NCBI GenBank assembly: GCA_000597885.1
Contig: CP004371.1
Coordinates: forward strand, 3,736,501-3,800,500
Length of the DNA: 64,000 bases
Direction of reading: 5' to 3'
From: Flammeovirgaceae bacterium 311
GTDB taxonomy: Bacteria; Bacteroidota; Bacteroidia; Cytophagales; Cyclobacteriaceae
Shown here in pieces: positions 20,700-28,283 of the stretch. How positions within the stretch are numbered: position 1 is the first letter of the stretch; each line of letters opens with the position of its first letter. Under the pieces are notes generated by a model that was not told the origin of the DNA, made no database searches, and worked only from the letters and a program-made list of their open reading frames with translations. The position numbers and the translations under genes were made by a program.

Positions 20700-21104
20700 A
20701 TGATCAATACTATAAAAATTGAGATTCCTTCTCTCATTGAAAATATCAGGATGATTGAGAGCTTCATTGACAATGCAAAGGAGGAGTTTCAGTTAGACGA
20801 TGGTCTGTATGGGAATATTATGATTGCTGTTACAGAATCAGTGAACAATGCTATTCGCCACGGGAACAGAATGGATCCGAGCAAGAACGTTAAGCTTACG
20901 CTTTATTTGCGGGAAGACAACATTCAATTTGAGATAGAAGATGAAGGGGAGGGGTTTGATTATGAAAATCTGCCTGATCCGACTGCTCCAGAGAATATTG
21001 AAAAGCCTGGTGGCAGAGGCATCTTCCTGATGAAGCACCTTGCAGATGAGGTTAATTTTAAAAACAAAGGCCGCCTGGTAGAGCTTTGTTTTTACCTGAA
21101 TTAA
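20700..21104 (+). CDS. HATPase-domain protein, anti-sigma regulatory factor (RsbW/SpoIIAB) type
   Basis: 134 residues from ATG 20700. The GHKL ATP-binding boxes are present: N box VTESVNNAIRHGN (residues about 45-57), G1 box DEGEGFDYENLPDP (81-94) and G2 box GGRGIFLMKHLADEV (102-116). Stand-alone proteins of this size act as serine kinases of anti-anti-sigma factors or similar switches. No STAS-domain partner lies nearby. The gene is 15 bp after DUF4175 and ends 1 bp before the ybeY start, so the three are very likely one operon. Confidence 0.88.
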   Translation: MINTIKIEIPSLIENIRMIESFIDNAKEEFQLDDGLYGNIMIAVTESVNNAIRHGNRMDPSKNVKLTLYLREDNIQFEIEDEGEGFDYENLPDPTAPENIEKPGGRGIFLMKHLADEVNFKNKGRLVELCFYLN

Positions 21105-21573: not shown

Positions 21574-21589
21574 CGTTCCACGTGGAACT
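21574..21589. promoter_or_regulatory. Candidate parS site 1 upstream of mnmG
   Basis: CGTTCCACGTGGAACT contains the perfect 14-bp palindrome GTTCCACGTGGAAC at 21575-21588, the ParB-binding core (general form TGTTnCACGTGnAACA). It lies in the non-coding gap, 76 bp before mnmG. Confidence 0.75.
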
Positions 21590-21627: not shown

Positions 21628-21643
21628 AGTTTCACGTGGAACA
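21628..21643. promoter_or_regulatory. Candidate parS site 2 upstream of mnmG
   Basis: AGTTTCACGTGGAACA differs from the B. subtilis consensus TGTTTCACGTGAAACA at two positions. It is 54 bp from site 1, start to start, and 22 bp before the mnmG start codon. Two near-consensus parS in one 121-bp gap are unlikely by chance. Confidence 0.78.
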
Positions 21644-21664: not shown

Positions 21665-23527
21665 ATGTTTCCGGAATACGATGTAATAGTAGTGGGTGGT
21701 GGCCATGCAGGTTGTGAAGCTGCGCATGCTGCTGCTAAAATGGGATCGAAGGTACTGCTGGTTACCATGAATATGCAGACCATTGCTCAAATGTCTTGTA
21801 ACCCTGCAATGGGTGGTGTAGCCAAGGGGCAAATTGTCCGTGAGATAGATGCATTAGGAGGTATGTCGGGTATTATATCAGATAAATCTACGGTGCAGTT
21901 CCGGATGCTGAACAGATCTAAAGGCCCGGCCATGTGGAGTCCGCGTACACAAAATGACCGCATGCGCTTTGCAGAAGAATGGCGCCTGGCACTGGAGCAA
22001 AATCCTAATATAGACCTGTGGCAGGAAATGGCTAAAGGTATTGTGGTAAAAGACGGTAGGGTGGTAGGTGTAAAAACTGCACTTGGTATAGAAATACCTA
22101 CCAAAGCAGTGGTGCTCACAAACGGTACTTTCCTGAACGGACTTATCCATATAGGGGAGAAGCAGTTTGGTGGTGGCAGGAGCGGCGAAAAAGCAGCCTC
22201 TGGTATTACAGAACAGCTGGTAGAATTAGGCTTTGAAGCAGGCAGAATGAAAACTGGCACACCGCCAAGGGTAGACGGCCGTACCCTTAACTATGCCCTG
22301 ATGGAAGAGCAAAGGGGAGATGAAAACCCCGGCAGCTTCTCCTATATGACAAATGCTCCTGTACAAAAGCAGCTGCCCTGCTACATTACCTATACCAATG
22401 AAGAGGTACATGCTACCTTACAAACTGGTTTTGATCGTTCTCCTATGTTCAACGGACGCATCAAAGGGCTGGGTCCGCGCTATTGCCCTTCTATAGAAGA
22501 TAAAATAAACCGATTTGCCGAGCGGGAGCGTCACCAGATATTTGTAGAGCCTGAAGGCTGGAATACTGTTGAAATATATGTAAATGGTTTTTCGACCTCC
22601 CTGCCAGAAGATGTGCAGTACAAGGCTTTAAGAAAAATAACAGGCTTTGAGAATGCAAAAATGTTCAGGCCCGGCTATGCCATTGAATACGATTACTTCC
22701 CACCAACGCAACTTCAGCTCACCCTGGAGACCAGGCTGGTAGAAAACCTGTTTTTTGCCGGGCAGATTAACGGAACCACAGGTTACGAAGAAGCAGCCTG
22801 CCAGGGGCTGATTGCTGGTATTAATGCTCATAATAAGGTGCATGAAAAGGAAGCCTTTATTCCAAAACGTTCCGATGCCTATATTGGCGTACTGATTGAT
22901 GACCTGGTGAACAAGGGCACAGATGAGCCATATCGCATGTTTACCTCCCGGGCAGAGTTCCGCATCTTGTTAAGGCAGGATAATGCAGACCTGCGCCTGA
23001 CAGAAACGGGCCATCGCCTGGGCCTGGCATCAGATGAGCGTTTAGAGCGTGTGCTTGATAAGAAAAATGATCTGCAAAAGGTACTGAACGATCTGAAACA
23101 GAAAAAAGTAGCTCCTGAATTGGCAAACGCCGGTTTGGAAGGTTTCAATACGGCAGCACTGAAAGAAACAACAAGTGCATTGCAGCTGCTTCGCCGTCCA
23201 CAGATTGGGATTGGTGAGCTAAAAAAACTCGATGCTGATTTGGCCAATTACCTGAACCGTTACCCGGATGAAGTACTGGAGCAGGCTGAAATTCAGATTA
23301 AGTATGAAACATATATTGATAAAGAGCAAAAGCTTGCAGAACGGATGGAAGGCATGGAAAACCATATTATTCCGCAAAGCTTCGATTACAATAAAATTGT
23401 AGCCCTATCAGCAGAAGCCAAACAGAAACTCAATAAACAAAGGCCGGCTACCATTGGTCAGGCCAGCCGGATCAGCGGCGTATCGCCAGCCGATATTTCA
23501 GTTCTTACCATTTATATGGGAAAATAA
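21665..23527 (+). CDS. mnmG: tRNA uridine-5-carboxymethylaminomethyl(34) synthesis enzyme MnmG (GidA)
   Basis: 620 residues from ATG 21665, the usual length. The FAD-binding Rossmann motif VVGGGHAGCEAAHAAAKMG lies at residues 9-27, CNPAMGGVAKGQ at 45-56, the GidA signature GPRYCPSIEDKI near residues 273-284 and the second signature AGQINGTTGYEEAACQG at about 363-379. With MnmE it installs the cmnm5 group at U34 of certain tRNAs, using FAD and NADH. In many bacteria gidA lies near the replication origin; here it follows two parS sites, in keeping with that. It starts the block mnmG - methyltransferase - Ig-like lipoprotein, with gaps of 5 bp and a 4-bp overlap. Confidence 0.97.
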   Translation: MFPEYDVIVVGGGHAGCEAAHAAAKMGSKVLLVTMNMQTIAQMSCNPAMGGVAKGQIVREIDALGGMSGIISDKSTVQFRMLNRSKGPAMWSPRTQNDRMRFAEEWRLALEQNPNIDLWQEMAKGIVVKDGRVVGVKTALGIEIPTKAVVLTNGTFLNGLIHIGEKQFGGGRSGEKAASGITEQLVELGFEAGRMKTGTPPRVDGRTLNYALMEEQRGDENPGSFSYMTNAPVQKQLPCYITYTNEEVHATLQTGFDRSPMFNGRIKGLGPRYCPSIEDKINRFAERERHQIFVEPEGWNTVEIYVNGFSTSLPEDVQYKALRKITGFENAKMFRPGYAIEYDYFPPTQLQLTLETRLVENLFFAGQINGTTGYEEAACQGLIAGINAHNKVHEKEAFIPKRSDAYIGVLIDDLVNKGTDEPYRMFTSRAEFRILLRQDNADLRLTETGHRLGLASDERLERVLDKKNDLQKVLNDLKQKKVAPELANAGLEGFNTAALKETTSALQLLRRPQIGIGELKKLDADLANYLNRYPDEVLEQAEIQIKYETYIDKEQKLAERMEGMENHIIPQSFDYNKIVALSAEAKQKLNKQRPATIGQASRISGVSPADISVLTIYMGK

Positions 23528-23532
23528 TCAAT

Positions 23533-24417
23533 ATGCATCAGGAACTACAGCACTGCCCGCTCTGTCACAGCGGGCAGTTCCGTTTGTTTATTACTTGTAA
23601 AGACTATAACGTAAGTGGCGAAAAATTTGGCATACAGCAATGCCAGAACTGCGATTTACTGTTTACAAACCCCAGGCCTGCAGAAACAGAACTTGGCAGT
23701 TATTATGATTCTGACACCTATGTATCGCACACCAACAAGGGCAATACCCTCATTAACCGCGCCTACAAGCTGGTAAGAAGGTTTACCCTGCGACAAAAAA
23801 CTGCGCTTGTAGAAAAGTGGAGCCTTTCCGGTGAACTGTTGGACATAGGCTGCGGCACCGGGCATTTTCTGCAGGCTGCAAAAGAAAAAGGATGGAAGGT
23901 AGAGGGGGTGGAAATAAATGATGGTGCCCGTACACAGGCCGAGGCTGCTTTAGAGCAGGAGCTGTACAAACATTTAACTGAAATTCCGCTCACCAGAAGA
24001 TTTCAGGCAATAAGTATGTGGCATGTGCTGGAACATGTATACGATTTAGGGCAGACTTTAACGTTATTAAAAGACCTGCTGCATAAGCAGGGTAGTTTGC
24101 TGATTGCAGTGCCAAATCCTCAAAGTTATGATGCACAGGTATATGGTAGTGCATGGGCTGCCTGGGATGTACCCCGCCACCTGTACCACTTTAGCCAGGA
24201 GGTTATGCATAAACTGGCCAGAAAACACGGTTTTACCATAAAAGCCATTAATCCCATGTATTTCGATGCTTTTTATGTGAGCATGTTAAGCGAGGAATAC
24301 AAAAAAGGCAGCAAAGCTTATGGAAATGCAGTTATTACAGGAATGCGCAGCAACCTTTGGGCTAAAAACCACAACAATCAATTTTCAAGTTTAATCTATA
24401 TTCTTCAACACGCATGA
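23533..24417 (+). CDS. Class I SAM methyltransferase with N-terminal zinc-ribbon
   Basis: 294 residues from ATG 23533, 5 bp after mnmG. The N-terminus has two knuckles, CPLC (residues 8-11) and CQNC (37-40), likely binding zinc. SAM motif I is LLDIGCGTGHFLQAAKEKGW (about residues 101-120), with acidic residue in VEGVEINDG and the post-motif SMWHVLEHVYD (about 160-170), the pattern of the Methyltransf_23 family. Proteins of this build methylate sugars or other small molecules; the target is not apparent. Its last codons overlap the next start by 4 bp (ATGA), so the two are translationally coupled. Confidence 0.88.
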   Translation: MHQELQHCPLCHSGQFRLFITCKDYNVSGEKFGIQQCQNCDLLFTNPRPAETELGSYYDSDTYVSHTNKGNTLINRAYKLVRRFTLRQKTALVEKWSLSGELLDIGCGTGHFLQAAKEKGWKVEGVEINDGARTQAEAALEQELYKHLTEIPLTRRFQAISMWHVLEHVYDLGQTLTLLKDLLHKQGSLLIAVPNPQSYDAQVYGSAWAAWDVPRHLYHFSQEVMHKLARKHGFTIKAINPMYFDAFYVSMLSEEYKKGSKAYGNAVITGMRSNLWAKNHNNQFSSLIYILQHA

Positions 24418-26105
24418 AGTTTTCTTCATTCATCCTGTACCTGTTCATGATAGTAAGCGGTGTTTGGTACATGGGCTCAGGTTGTGCCAATGTAGGAAGC
24501 CCTACCGGTGGCGACAGAGATACAATACCACCGCGCTTGATAAGCATTACGCCCGCACCAGGAACAATCAATTATAAGGAAAGAGTAATAAGTATGCAGT
24601 TTGATGAGCTGGTGACTCAAAAAAGTTTGCAGTCGCAGCTGATCATTACGCCCCGCACAGAGGTAAAGTATAAAACCAGGATCAATAAGAATATCGTTGA
24701 ACTTACTTTTGAAGAACCCTTTAGCGACAGCACCACTTATACTTTTAATTTCAGGGAGGGTATTGTGGATATCACAGAAGGAAATGTTGCCCCAAACCTC
24801 TATCTGGCATTCAGTACAGGAAGTTATCTGGATTCACTTATCATCAGTGGACAGGTGAGAGATGCTTTGACTGATAAAGCTGTAGAAGGTGCTACGGTTG
24901 TACTCTTCAACCCCAGAGATACTACAAATGTATTCACGGACAAGCCTGCCTACTTTAGCAGAACGGATAAAGACGGTAATTATGAACTAAGAAACCTTAA
25001 AAGGGGGCGCTACCTTGTCTATGGGTTTATGGATAATAATAAAAACCTAACGCTTCAAACCAAGAGTGAGCGCTATGGTTACTGGCCGGATACGCTACAA
25101 CTTACCGCTTCTCAGGATTCTGTGAATATCCGGCTGTTTAACGTTACTGCAGATAAGCCCCAGGTAAATAGTGCAAGACCTGCGGGTAACTATTTTGAAG
25201 TTACCTTCAATAAACCAATGAACAGCTATCAGCTGCAGACAGAAGGTAACATAGAGGTGAGCAGTAACTTTATCGAGAAAAATAAAAAGCTGAGAATTTA
25301 TCCGGTACCCATACAGGATAGCCTTAGGGCTATGATTACCGCAACCGACTCTTTACAGCAGATGGTTAGTGATACATTTTACATACGATATGAACAAAGC
25401 AGGCGTGCAAAAACACCCTTTACCCTGGAATCTACAAAGCCTAGAAAAGGAACTTCCATTACAAAGAACCTGCAGCTAACACTACAATTCACAAAGCCTG
25501 TTGTAAGCCTGAGAACAGATAGTCTGCGCCTTATGTACGACAGCTTAAACTGGGAGACTGTAACAGCACAGGAAATTGAGTGGAATAACAGCCGTGATAA
25601 ATTAATGATCAGAAAAACCCTGTCTCCGCCTCAGCCTGCAGCACCTGCAATATCTACTGCAGAAACAGATCCGCAAAAGCTGGCCAGGGGAGGAGCGGGA
25701 AGCAGGGAACAACAAGTAGAATTAAGGATACCTAAGGGAACAATTTATAGCGTTGAATCAGATACCCTTGATAATCAGACACTTAACTATAGATTTGCTA
25801 CAGAAAGCCTTACAGGAATCATAAATGGAACCATAGTAACCACTGCCAGTGACTATATTGTACAGCTCGTAAAAGCTGGAAATTTTGAAGTAGTTGCAGA
25901 ACAAATCAATGCCAGGCAATATACTTTCAAGCTGGTAGAGCCCGGTGATTACCTCATCAGAGTAGTGGTAGACAGCAATGCAAACGGGAGATGGGATCCA
26001 GGAAATATCTACACATTAGCTCCACCGGAACCCGTATTTATCTATGATCAGCCTATTACAATTAAGGCAAACTGGGAGATCCAGAATCCGGAAATTTTGC
26101 TGTAA
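24414..26105 (+). CDS. Ig-like (SbsA/Big_5) domain lipoprotein
   Basis: 563 residues from ATG 24414. Signal peptide with Cys in GSGCANVGSPTGGDRDTIPP (residues 22-41); this post-Cys sequence is characteristic of a family widespread in Bacteroidota, in which a Big_5 Ig-like domain (about residues 38-140, ITPAPGTINYKERVISMQFD) follows directly. A carboxypeptidase-regulatory-like segment is seen at about 143-210 (VEGATVVLFNP, NYELRNLKRGRYLVYGF). Function unknown; probably an outer-membrane or surface lipoprotein. The gene ends at the AT-rich putative origin region. Confidence 0.85.
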   Translation: MKFSSFILYLFMIVSGVWYMGSGCANVGSPTGGDRDTIPPRLISITPAPGTINYKERVISMQFDELVTQKSLQSQLIITPRTEVKYKTRINKNIVELTFEEPFSDSTTYTFNFREGIVDITEGNVAPNLYLAFSTGSYLDSLIISGQVRDALTDKAVEGATVVLFNPRDTTNVFTDKPAYFSRTDKDGNYELRNLKRGRYLVYGFMDNNKNLTLQTKSERYGYWPDTLQLTASQDSVNIRLFNVTADKPQVNSARPAGNYFEVTFNKPMNSYQLQTEGNIEVSSNFIEKNKKLRIYPVPIQDSLRAMITATDSLQQMVSDTFYIRYEQSRRAKTPFTLESTKPRKGTSITKNLQLTLQFTKPVVSLRTDSLRLMYDSLNWETVTAQEIEWNNSRDKLMIRKTLSPPQPAAPAISTAETDPQKLARGGAGSREQQVELRIPKGTIYSVESDTLDNQTLNYRFATESLTGIINGTIVTTASDYIVQLVKAGNFEVVAEQINARQYTFKLVEPGDYLIRVVVDSNANGRWDPGNIYTLAPPEPVFIYDQPITIKANWEIQNPEILL

Positions 26106-26453
26106 AACCTGTGCATAACTTGTACATGGCTGTAGATAACCATGGTGCATAAGTCTGCAGCAGTGGGGGTGTGGGTATAAGTGCTAAGTTGTCCAGATTA
26201 TACACAGTCTGTTTCCACACAGCCATAGTTTATCAACAGCTCGAAAAGCTTCATGTGGAACTTTAGGTGGATATCGATAAGTAATTAAATATCAGAAACT
26301 TAAGAGCAGTTATTTAACCTATTAATTGAGATATCCACATCAGTGTAAGAGCAAAATTAAAAAAAAGAAGCAGTTATTAACCTTTTAACAGCTTAATAGA
26401 AACAATATATTTCTTAAATATTTATTTATTAATAAGTATTAGAGGGTGGAATT
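26106..26453. other. Candidate chromosomal replication origin (oriC): DnaA-box cluster and AT-rich tract
   Basis: The gap holds several 9-mers close to the DnaA box TTATCCACA (both strands): TGTGCATAA at 26110-26118 and TTATACACA at 26198-26206 fit TTATNCACA exactly; TGTAGATAA at 26131-26139, TTATCAACA at 26230-26238 and ATATCCACA at 26331-26339 have one mismatch; GGTGCATAA at 26144-26152, GTTTCCACA at 26211-26219 and GGTGGATAT at 26266-26274 have two. The right part, about 26370-26445, is almost pure A/T and could be the unwinding element. A degenerate parS-like GCTTCATGTGGAAC is at 26248-26261. No dnaA gene is adjacent, which is not unusual for Bacteroidota. Skew analysis was not possible here. 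Confidence 0.6.
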
Positions 26454-28283
26454 ATGTGTATAAGTACTTTGAAAAAAAAATATTTGCTTCTGCTGTTCCT
26501 TTTTTTGCCCTTTGCAGGCTGGGCACAGGACAGGCAGGAAATAAAACTCGCTGATGAATATTACCAGCGCGGAGATCTGGTGAAAGCACGTCAGCTATAT
26601 GATGAACTGGCAGGAGATGAAGCAAACATTTCGCTTATTCACAATAATTACCTAAGCCTGTTGACAAGTCAGGAAGACTTCCGGGCAGCAGAACGTTATT
26701 TGCAGCGGCTAATCCGTAACAGAGCAAATGCAGAACGTTTTCAACTGGATCTGGCACAGGTCTACAGCCAGCAGGGTGATACAAAGAAAGCTGATAAGCT
26801 CTACCATGATATTATAGAAGCTGCTGCTACCAATAACTTCAAAACCCATACAGTAGCGCAGCAGCTGATGTCTAATCGCTTATATGAGAAGGCACTGCGC
26901 ACTTACGAAAGGGCTCGTGAGGTACAGTCTTCTCCTGATGAGTCTTATTCGCTTCAGATGGCTGTTCTTTACAATTTGCTTGGTCAGCAGAAGCAAATGT
27001 TTGAGGAGTACTTTCGTTATATCCGCCAGCAGCCCAATAGAGTGCAGCAGGCCAAAAATATGCTGCAGAATACTTTAACAACACCAGAAGACCTGCAGGC
27101 ATTAGAGACTTTACTTTTTGAAAAGGTACAGCAGGAGCCTGGCAACAGACAGTTTTCCGATCTGCTCATCTGGCTGCACCTGCAGCAAAAGAACTTTTAT
27201 GGTGCGTTTGTACAGGCAAGAGCCCTGCAGAAGCGTTTTAAAGAGGGGCCTGATCAACTCATGGAGATAGGGCAGATTGCCCTTGAGAATAAAGATTACG
27301 CAGGTGCCATCAAGATTTTTGAGTACATCAACGGGGCTTTTCCTGATTTACCGGAACGTTACCTGGCGCGCCGCTACCTGATACTCTCCCGCGAGCAGCT
27401 GGTAAAAACTACCTATCCGGTAGATACCCTGGAGATCCGAAAGCTGATCAGTGACTATGAACAACTGGTAGAAGATGCGGAAAACAGCCCCACGGCCATA
27501 GATGCACAAAACAGCATGGCCATGCTCTATGCTTTTTACCTGGACGAAAAAGCCAGGGCTACAGAGATCCTGAACATGCTGATCCAGAATCCGCGAACAC
27601 CCGGGCGCCTTAGAGGACAAAGTAAAATGGCTTTAGGCGACATTTACCTGCTTACTGGAGAACCATGGGAAGCTACGCTGCTCTACTCACAGGTAGAGAA
27701 AGCATTCAAGGATGACCCGTTGGGTTATGAAGCTAAACTGCGCAATGCAAGGCTTTCCTATTTCAAGGGAGAGTTTGGCCTGGCACAGGGGCACCTTGAT
27801 GTTTTAAAAGAGGCTACCACCCGTGAAATTGCCAATGATGCCATGGCGCTGAGTCAATTAATCAAAAACAATAGTTATTTAGACTCCGTAGACCTGCCGA
27901 TGCAACGTTATGCCAACACAGAGCTGTTACTCTTCCAGAACAAGAAAAAAGAGGCTCTGCAGGAACTTGATGCTATGCTCACCGACTACAAGGGGCATAG
28001 CCTTACCGATGATATCCTTTACCGGCAGGCTCAGGTCTATGTAGAGCTTGGAGAATTTCAGCAGGCTGTTGATAAGTTAAACCTGCTGGTGGATAACTGG
28101 TCTTTCGATATTCTGGCAGATGATGCCTGGTTTCTAAGGGCAACACTCTACGAAGAGTATCTTAAAGATCATGAAACAGCTAAAGAGCAGTATACAGAAT
28201 TCCTGAAGCGGTTTCCGGGTAGTGTTTATGTTGCTGAAGCAAGAAAACGCTACAGAACATTAAGAGGCGATTTTGCTAATTAG
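26454..28283 (+). CDS. Exported tetratricopeptide repeat protein
   Basis: 609 residues from ATG 26454; signal peptide with hydrophobic core YLLLLFLFLPFAGWAQ. TPR-like helical pairs run through the mature chain: ADEYYQRGDLVKARQLYDEL (residues 33-52), VYSQQGDTKKADKLYHDII, IALENKDYAGAIKIFEYING (about 277-296), AQVYVELGEFQQAVDKLNLL (about 524-543). It is probably a periplasmic scaffold for protein-protein contacts. No partner can be named. It is the first gene to the right of the putative origin and ends at a terminator. Confidence 0.88.
   Translation: MCISTLKKKYLLLLFLFLPFAGWAQDRQEIKLADEYYQRGDLVKARQLYDELAGDEANISLIHNNYLSLLTSQEDFRAAERYLQRLIRNRANAERFQLDLAQVYSQQGDTKKADKLYHDIIEAAATNNFKTHTVAQQLMSNRLYEKALRTYERAREVQSSPDESYSLQMAVLYNLLGQQKQMFEEYFRYIRQQPNRVQQAKNMLQNTLTTPEDLQALETLLFEKVQQEPGNRQFSDLLIWLHLQQKNFYGAFVQARALQKRFKEGPDQLMEIGQIALENKDYAGAIKIFEYINGAFPDLPERYLARRYLILSREQLVKTTYPVDTLEIRKLISDYEQLVEDAENSPTAIDAQNSMAMLYAFYLDEKARATEILNMLIQNPRTPGRLRGQSKMALGDIYLLTGEPWEATLLYSQVEKAFKDDPLGYEAKLRNARLSYFKGEFGLAQGHLDVLKEATTREIANDAMALSQLIKNNSYLDSVDLPMQRYANTELLLFQNKKKEALQELDAMLTDYKGHSLTDDILYRQAQVYVELGEFQQAVDKLNLLVDNWSFDILADDAWFLRATLYEEYLKDHETAKEQYTEFLKRFPGSVYVAEARKRYRTLRGDFAN

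Follow-up and report, generated by a model that had tools for sequence, protein, structure and literature searches.

A very probable chromosomal replication origin in the mnmG neighbourhood, 859 kb from dnaA, in a Cytophagales genome

The intergenic gap at 26106-26453 raises the question of whether a cluster of DnaA boxes far from dnaA marks the place where this chromosome starts to replicate. The gap belongs to a window of 64,000 nucleotides (the whole stretch of DNA that was analysed; bases 3,736,501-3,800,500 of one 6,665,617-bp contig) and exactly fills the space between the + strand genes 24414-26105 and 26454-28283. The first-pass annotation had seen in it an oriC-like organisation away from dnaA, a claim now supported by the skew minimum, an excess of boxes and conservation in relatives. 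We conclude that 26106-26453 is very probably oriC, the single replication origin of the chromosome, as it combines a box cluster beyond chance, a skew minimum with balanced arms, an unstable element and a conserved locus. That relatives keep the box cluster at this position is stronger evidence than any that the annotation had offered. The neighbourhood is arranged as follows.

21574 to 21589, no strand assigned: parS site CGTTCCACGTGGAACT
21628 to 21643, no strand assigned: parS site AGTTTCACGTGGAACA
21665 to 23527, plus strand: mnmG (gidA), a conserved origin neighbour
23533 to 24417, plus strand: methyltransferase-like gene, a conserved origin neighbour by synteny, its function read from sequence
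24414 to 26105, plus strand: gene for a bacterial Ig-like (Big_5)/DUF2141 protein, left border of the putative oriC
26106 to 26453, no strand assigned: very probable oriC, between the Ig-like/DUF2141 gene and the TPR gene
26454 to 28283, plus strand: TPR-repeat protein gene, right border of the putative oriC

GC skew of the chromosome was sampled in 100 stretches of 20 kb, covering 30% of the genome. The results showed negative skew in 49 of 49 samples from 0.53 to 3.75 Mb and positive skew in 49 of the remaining 51. Cumulative skew reached its minimum within the window, flanked by the samples at 3.733-3.753 Mb and 3.799 Mb, and its maximum near 0.48 Mb, giving arms of about 3.4 and 3.3 Mb. 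In one complete relative the skew switches at the locus (10 of 10 samples negative to the left, 8 of 10 positive to the right), and in another it switches within about 0.4 Mb of it. Two local strand arguments made earlier for an origin proved weak: gene orientation left of 13 kb is mixed, and third-codon and fourfold-site skew do not discriminate within the window, because coding strands carry less G than C at fourfold sites on both sides.

Nothing but the general expectation from many bacteria would place the origin beside dnaA, which is found here at 4,621,546 (4.62 Mb). That locus is 859 kb from 26106-26453, sits inside a uniformly positive-skew arm and has no DnaA-box cluster in the 3.2 kb around it; an origin beside dnaA is thus already contradicted and has practically no chance of being correct. 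The host DnaA itself carries the usual GRDHSTV box-reading signature (read by eye) that goes with standard box recognition.

Within the gap, sites fitting TTATNCACA occur twice exactly, five times with one mismatch and nine times with two. The exact count given by the first-pass annotation stands, and its counts of three each for one and two mismatches were too low. The following sites have at most one mismatch, the left boxes pointing leftward and the right boxes rightward.

26110 to 26118, minus strand: DnaA box TTATGCACA, exact; three species of the genus (very probably Cesiribacter) agree at 8 of 9 positions
26131 to 26139, minus strand: DnaA box TTATCTACA, one mismatch; conserved at 8 of 9 positions within the genus
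26144 to 26152, minus strand: DnaA box TTATGCACC, one mismatch
26172 to 26180, minus strand: DnaA box TTATACCCA, one mismatch
26198 to 26206, plus strand: DnaA box TTATACACA, exact; present in the 90% relative, absent in the 79% relative
26230 to 26238, plus strand: DnaA box TTATCAACA, one mismatch; invariant in the genus
26331 to 26339, plus strand: DnaA box ATATCCACA, one mismatch; invariant in the genus

A chance cluster has nothing to recommend it beyond the AT-richness (67%) of this intergenic DNA. Shuffling these 348 bp 20,000 times with dinucleotides preserved gave on average 0.70 boxes with at most one mismatch and never more than 5; none of the shuffles (0/20,000) reached the 7 found, which upholds the excess over shuffled intergenic sequence. 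A scan in 340-bp stretches over 2.05 Mb, made up of the window, the dnaA locus and 99 samples, also put the gap first, with 7 boxes against 5, none of them exact, in the runner-up. Conservation in relatives already refutes the chance reading, to which we assign next to no probability. Across the whole window, TTATNCACA-type sites are not enriched (69 found versus 58 expected); clustering is what stands out, and no second box cluster occurs elsewhere in the window.

The right part of the gap holds two further elements, the first of which was absent from the earlier annotation.

26374 to 26407, plus strand: conserved core, with tandem degenerate boxes TTATTAACC and TTTTAACA at 8-bp pitch, a GCT spacer and a TAATAGAAACAATA run
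26404 to 26484, no strand assigned: weakest duplex, the lowest 80-bp stability of the 64-kb window, extending into the TPR gene start

Within the genus, 32 of the 34 core positions are identical, and invariance is 94% in the core, 73% in the boxes and 55% in the remainder of the gap. At the corresponding position relatives have TTATCCACA plus (A/T)ATCCACA at 8-bp pitch, 3-4 bp, a TAATAATAA-like run and very AT-rich DNA, and the arrangement TTATTAACC-TTTTAACA-GCT-TAATAGAAACAATA is a diverged form of this tandem-box/TAATAATAA motif. The core boxes of this genome are poor: comparison by eye with TTATCCACA shows 3 mismatches in one and 5 in the other. A profile from other genera, its matrix built from 21 relatives outside the genus, ranked 26374 on the plus strand top in 2.05 Mb, at 24.0 bits versus 17.3 for the next match. 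The A/T tract previously noted in the gap is real: judged by nearest-neighbour stability only, the window's weakest 80 bp lie at 26404-26484 and begin inside the core. This stretch is probably the DNA unwinding element, and the core beside it is the likely unwinding site.

The start could instead lie elsewhere in 13-26 kb, at a local skew minimum or in the parS/mnmG gap, with 26106-26453 acting as an accessory DnaA-binding region. Inside the window the local minimum is at about 18 kb, some 8 kb to the left of the gap, and a parS site at 21.6 kb points the same way. However, this offset is small at the 20-kb sampling resolution, and 18-26 kb is entirely + strand coding, which confounds the local skew there. 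The window has no other box cluster, its weakest DNA is at 26404-26484, and cluster and core together are conserved across an order; we therefore regard a start elsewhere in 13-26 kb as very improbable.

The putative core was compared with the basal unwinding system (BUS) of Bacillus subtilis, which consists of DnaA boxes, a spacer and DnaA-trios (PMC6669920, PMC8287927, PMC10721633), a module present in about 85% of origins examined (PMC8287927). Relatives resemble it: their boxes are in tandem, the spacer is short, and a trinucleotide-like TAATAATAA run adjoins weak DNA. Unlike in the BUS, the boxes here abut at 8-bp pitch, the run is TAA/ATA and not repeated CTA (3'-GAT-5'), and the boxes of this genome are degenerate, with fewer than three trios in frame. 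We applied a BUS rule with limits from PMC8287927, under which three or more trios with a middle A must lie no farther than 16 bp from a box that departs from TTATCCACA at two positions or fewer, the trio reading strand being taken from general knowledge and the sequence given in PMC7561715. The rule was matched by 63 of 72 relatives versus 72 of 300 random pieces (24%); in the gap 26106-26453 it returned only one zero-scoring match, on the minus strand. This genome has its layout (tandem boxes, spacer, TAATAA run) and the homologous position in common with relatives that fit the rule. By homology of position and layout, 26374-26407 would work like a BUS module, formally outside the class in this genome.

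The gene order mnmG - methyltransferase - Ig-like gene - oriC gap - TPR gene is kept across Cytophagales, the nearest named relative being Cesiribacter sp. SM1 (90% identity over the TPR protein), which makes Cesiribacter the very probable source genus of the window. DnaA boxes are dense just upstream of the TPR orthologue at the window's own locus and in 29 relatives, with two exceptions, L111, where a contig end cuts off the upstream region, and L133. The latter (relative G056) has the TPR orthologue, but only a single DnaA box precedes it and the core is missing, so this genome probably has its origin at another site. In the 79 named loci whose upstream sequence was long enough, a mean of 6.6 boxes was counted in the 600 bp preceding the TPR gene, versus 0.6 in equal lengths elsewhere, a count free of matrix-training circularity. 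The best core match fell within 400 bp upstream of the TPR gene in 64 of the 79, a figure that is partly circular because the relatives used to train the matrix partly overlap those loci. All 15 exceptions (Pontibacter, Adhaeribacter, Botryobacter) are without the mnmG-Ig-like neighbourhood at the TPR gene, and in Pontibacter and close kin, where the TPR gene is gone from that neighbourhood, no box cluster accompanies it. Since loci without the neighbourhood are also without the core match, they form a natural control, and the boxes belong to the locus and not to the TPR gene.

This control bears on the reading of the cluster as a DnaA-titration site or a DnaA-regulated promoter site of the TPR gene (datA-like) and not an origin. 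The cluster does lie directly upstream of the TPR gene, with boxes conserved alongside it, but they do not follow the relocated gene in Pontibacter and Adhaeribacter. Moreover, the skew minimum of the whole genome and its only parS sites fall together with the cluster, and titration sites do not need a conserved weak-DNA core. A titration or promoter role in place of an origin is thus highly improbable, and oriC remains our reading of the gap.

Three Pontibacter loci, L181, L188 and L211 (genomes G059, G060 and G066), have the TPR gene away from the mnmG-Ig-like neighbourhood and no box cluster. Each of these genomes contains one copy of the double box TTATCCACATTATCCACA, which is possibly the core of a relocated origin; by the listed coordinates it is not near mnmG or dnaA in the three genomes, and the origin was not found. 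G066 has three DnaA C-terminal domain matches (C9 and C10), of which two lie on a single contig in short frames; this suggests an additional or incomplete DnaA, or else a fragment of the assembly. A core profile, R1, gave mostly weak matches against 118 Bacteroidota genomes and missed the window's own site under strict filters, so non-detection by R1 carries no meaning. In 15 comparable genomes, nine R1 matches in total lay no more than 80 kb from mnmG, five of them <7 kb and one more 9.6 kb away, a proximity that is suggestive only.

The position of mnmG 2.6 kb left of the gap, noted in the first pass, was confirmed by the end of the gene, as were the two parS sites before it (21574-21589 and 21628-21643). 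A search of the whole genome for the parS core GTTNCACGTGNAAC gave just these two sites, both in the gap preceding mnmG and 4.5 kb left of the putative oriC, as expected near an origin. Of 58 loci in relatives, 55 have parS at this position, the remaining three ending too close to mnmG to tell, and no parS occurred in 571 kb of other sequence of those 58 loci. More widely, 58 of 61 Bacteroidota genomes contained parS-core sites. Among the genomes whose sites were listed, parS lay within 300 bp of mnmG in 32 of 33; 69 of the 75 listed sites were within 2.5 kb of mnmG, and many Bacteroidota genomes have them on both sides of the gene.

From the boxes, weak DNA, skew switch, parS sites and conservation, all read from sequence, we infer how this region would act as an origin in the cell. 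DnaA would load on the oppositely oriented box groups of 26106-26453 and, from the tandem pair at 26374-26390, its filament would extend onto one strand of the adjoining TAATAA-rich weak DNA. The filament would open this DNA from 26394 to about 26484, allowing two helicases to load. Forks would then depart both ways and meet near 0.5 Mb, while ParB on the two parS sites, 4.5 kb away, would segregate the new origins.

E. coli oriC lies close to mnmG and away from dnaA. The putative origin here is likewise near mnmG and far from dnaA, but two genes separate it from mnmG and parS sites are present, whereas the E. coli placement is gidA - oriC - mioC (PMC10225481). In Flavobacteriaceae, Ori-Finder predicts origins next to mnmG (PMC11278836, PMC12843772), and the dnaA position disagreed with the skew plot in one of these studies (PMC11278836); in gut bacteria, too, origins are not always at dnaA (PMC10197239). 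Replicative oriC plasmids of Cytophaga hutchinsonii are named in the title of Xu et al. 2012 (cited in PMC5891637), and that bacterium belongs to the same taxonomic order. Because mnmG-near, dnaA-distant Bacteroidota origins have already been predicted and oriC plasmids exist, 26106-26453 adds to a known type of origin. It shares with bacterial oriC of the Ori-Finder/DoriC type a box cluster, weak AT-rich DNA, a skew minimum and nearby mnmG and parS, and differs in not lying beside dnaA and in having a TPR gene as its right border.

We found no description of the order-wide 8-bp-pitch core or of the tight parS-mnmG link in the open-licence literature searched. As a tentative generalisation, held with somewhat less than even confidence, Cytophagales origins may open at a compact core that joins a TAATAA run to two DnaA boxes with 8-bp pitch, Bacteroidota parS may be locked to mnmG with the origin following that module and not dnaA, and the Cesiribacter core may have lost most C residues while staying almost invariant. 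In that case, DnaA would start the opening from boxes that, judged against the usual consensus, seem unable to function. A dnaA-start convention would misplace the origin of this genome by 859 kb; placing it at 26106-26453 gives strand analyses and estimates of copy number (growth rate) the correct reference point. In an order where few origins have been studied, the conserved core provides a short candidate unwinding site that can be tested, and throughout Bacteroidota the parS-mnmG link can serve as an easy marker for the region of the origin. The origin-proximal cluster also includes, at 20700-21104 between a DUF4175 gene and ybeY, a small HATPase_c_2 protein that is anti-sigma-factor-kinase-like.
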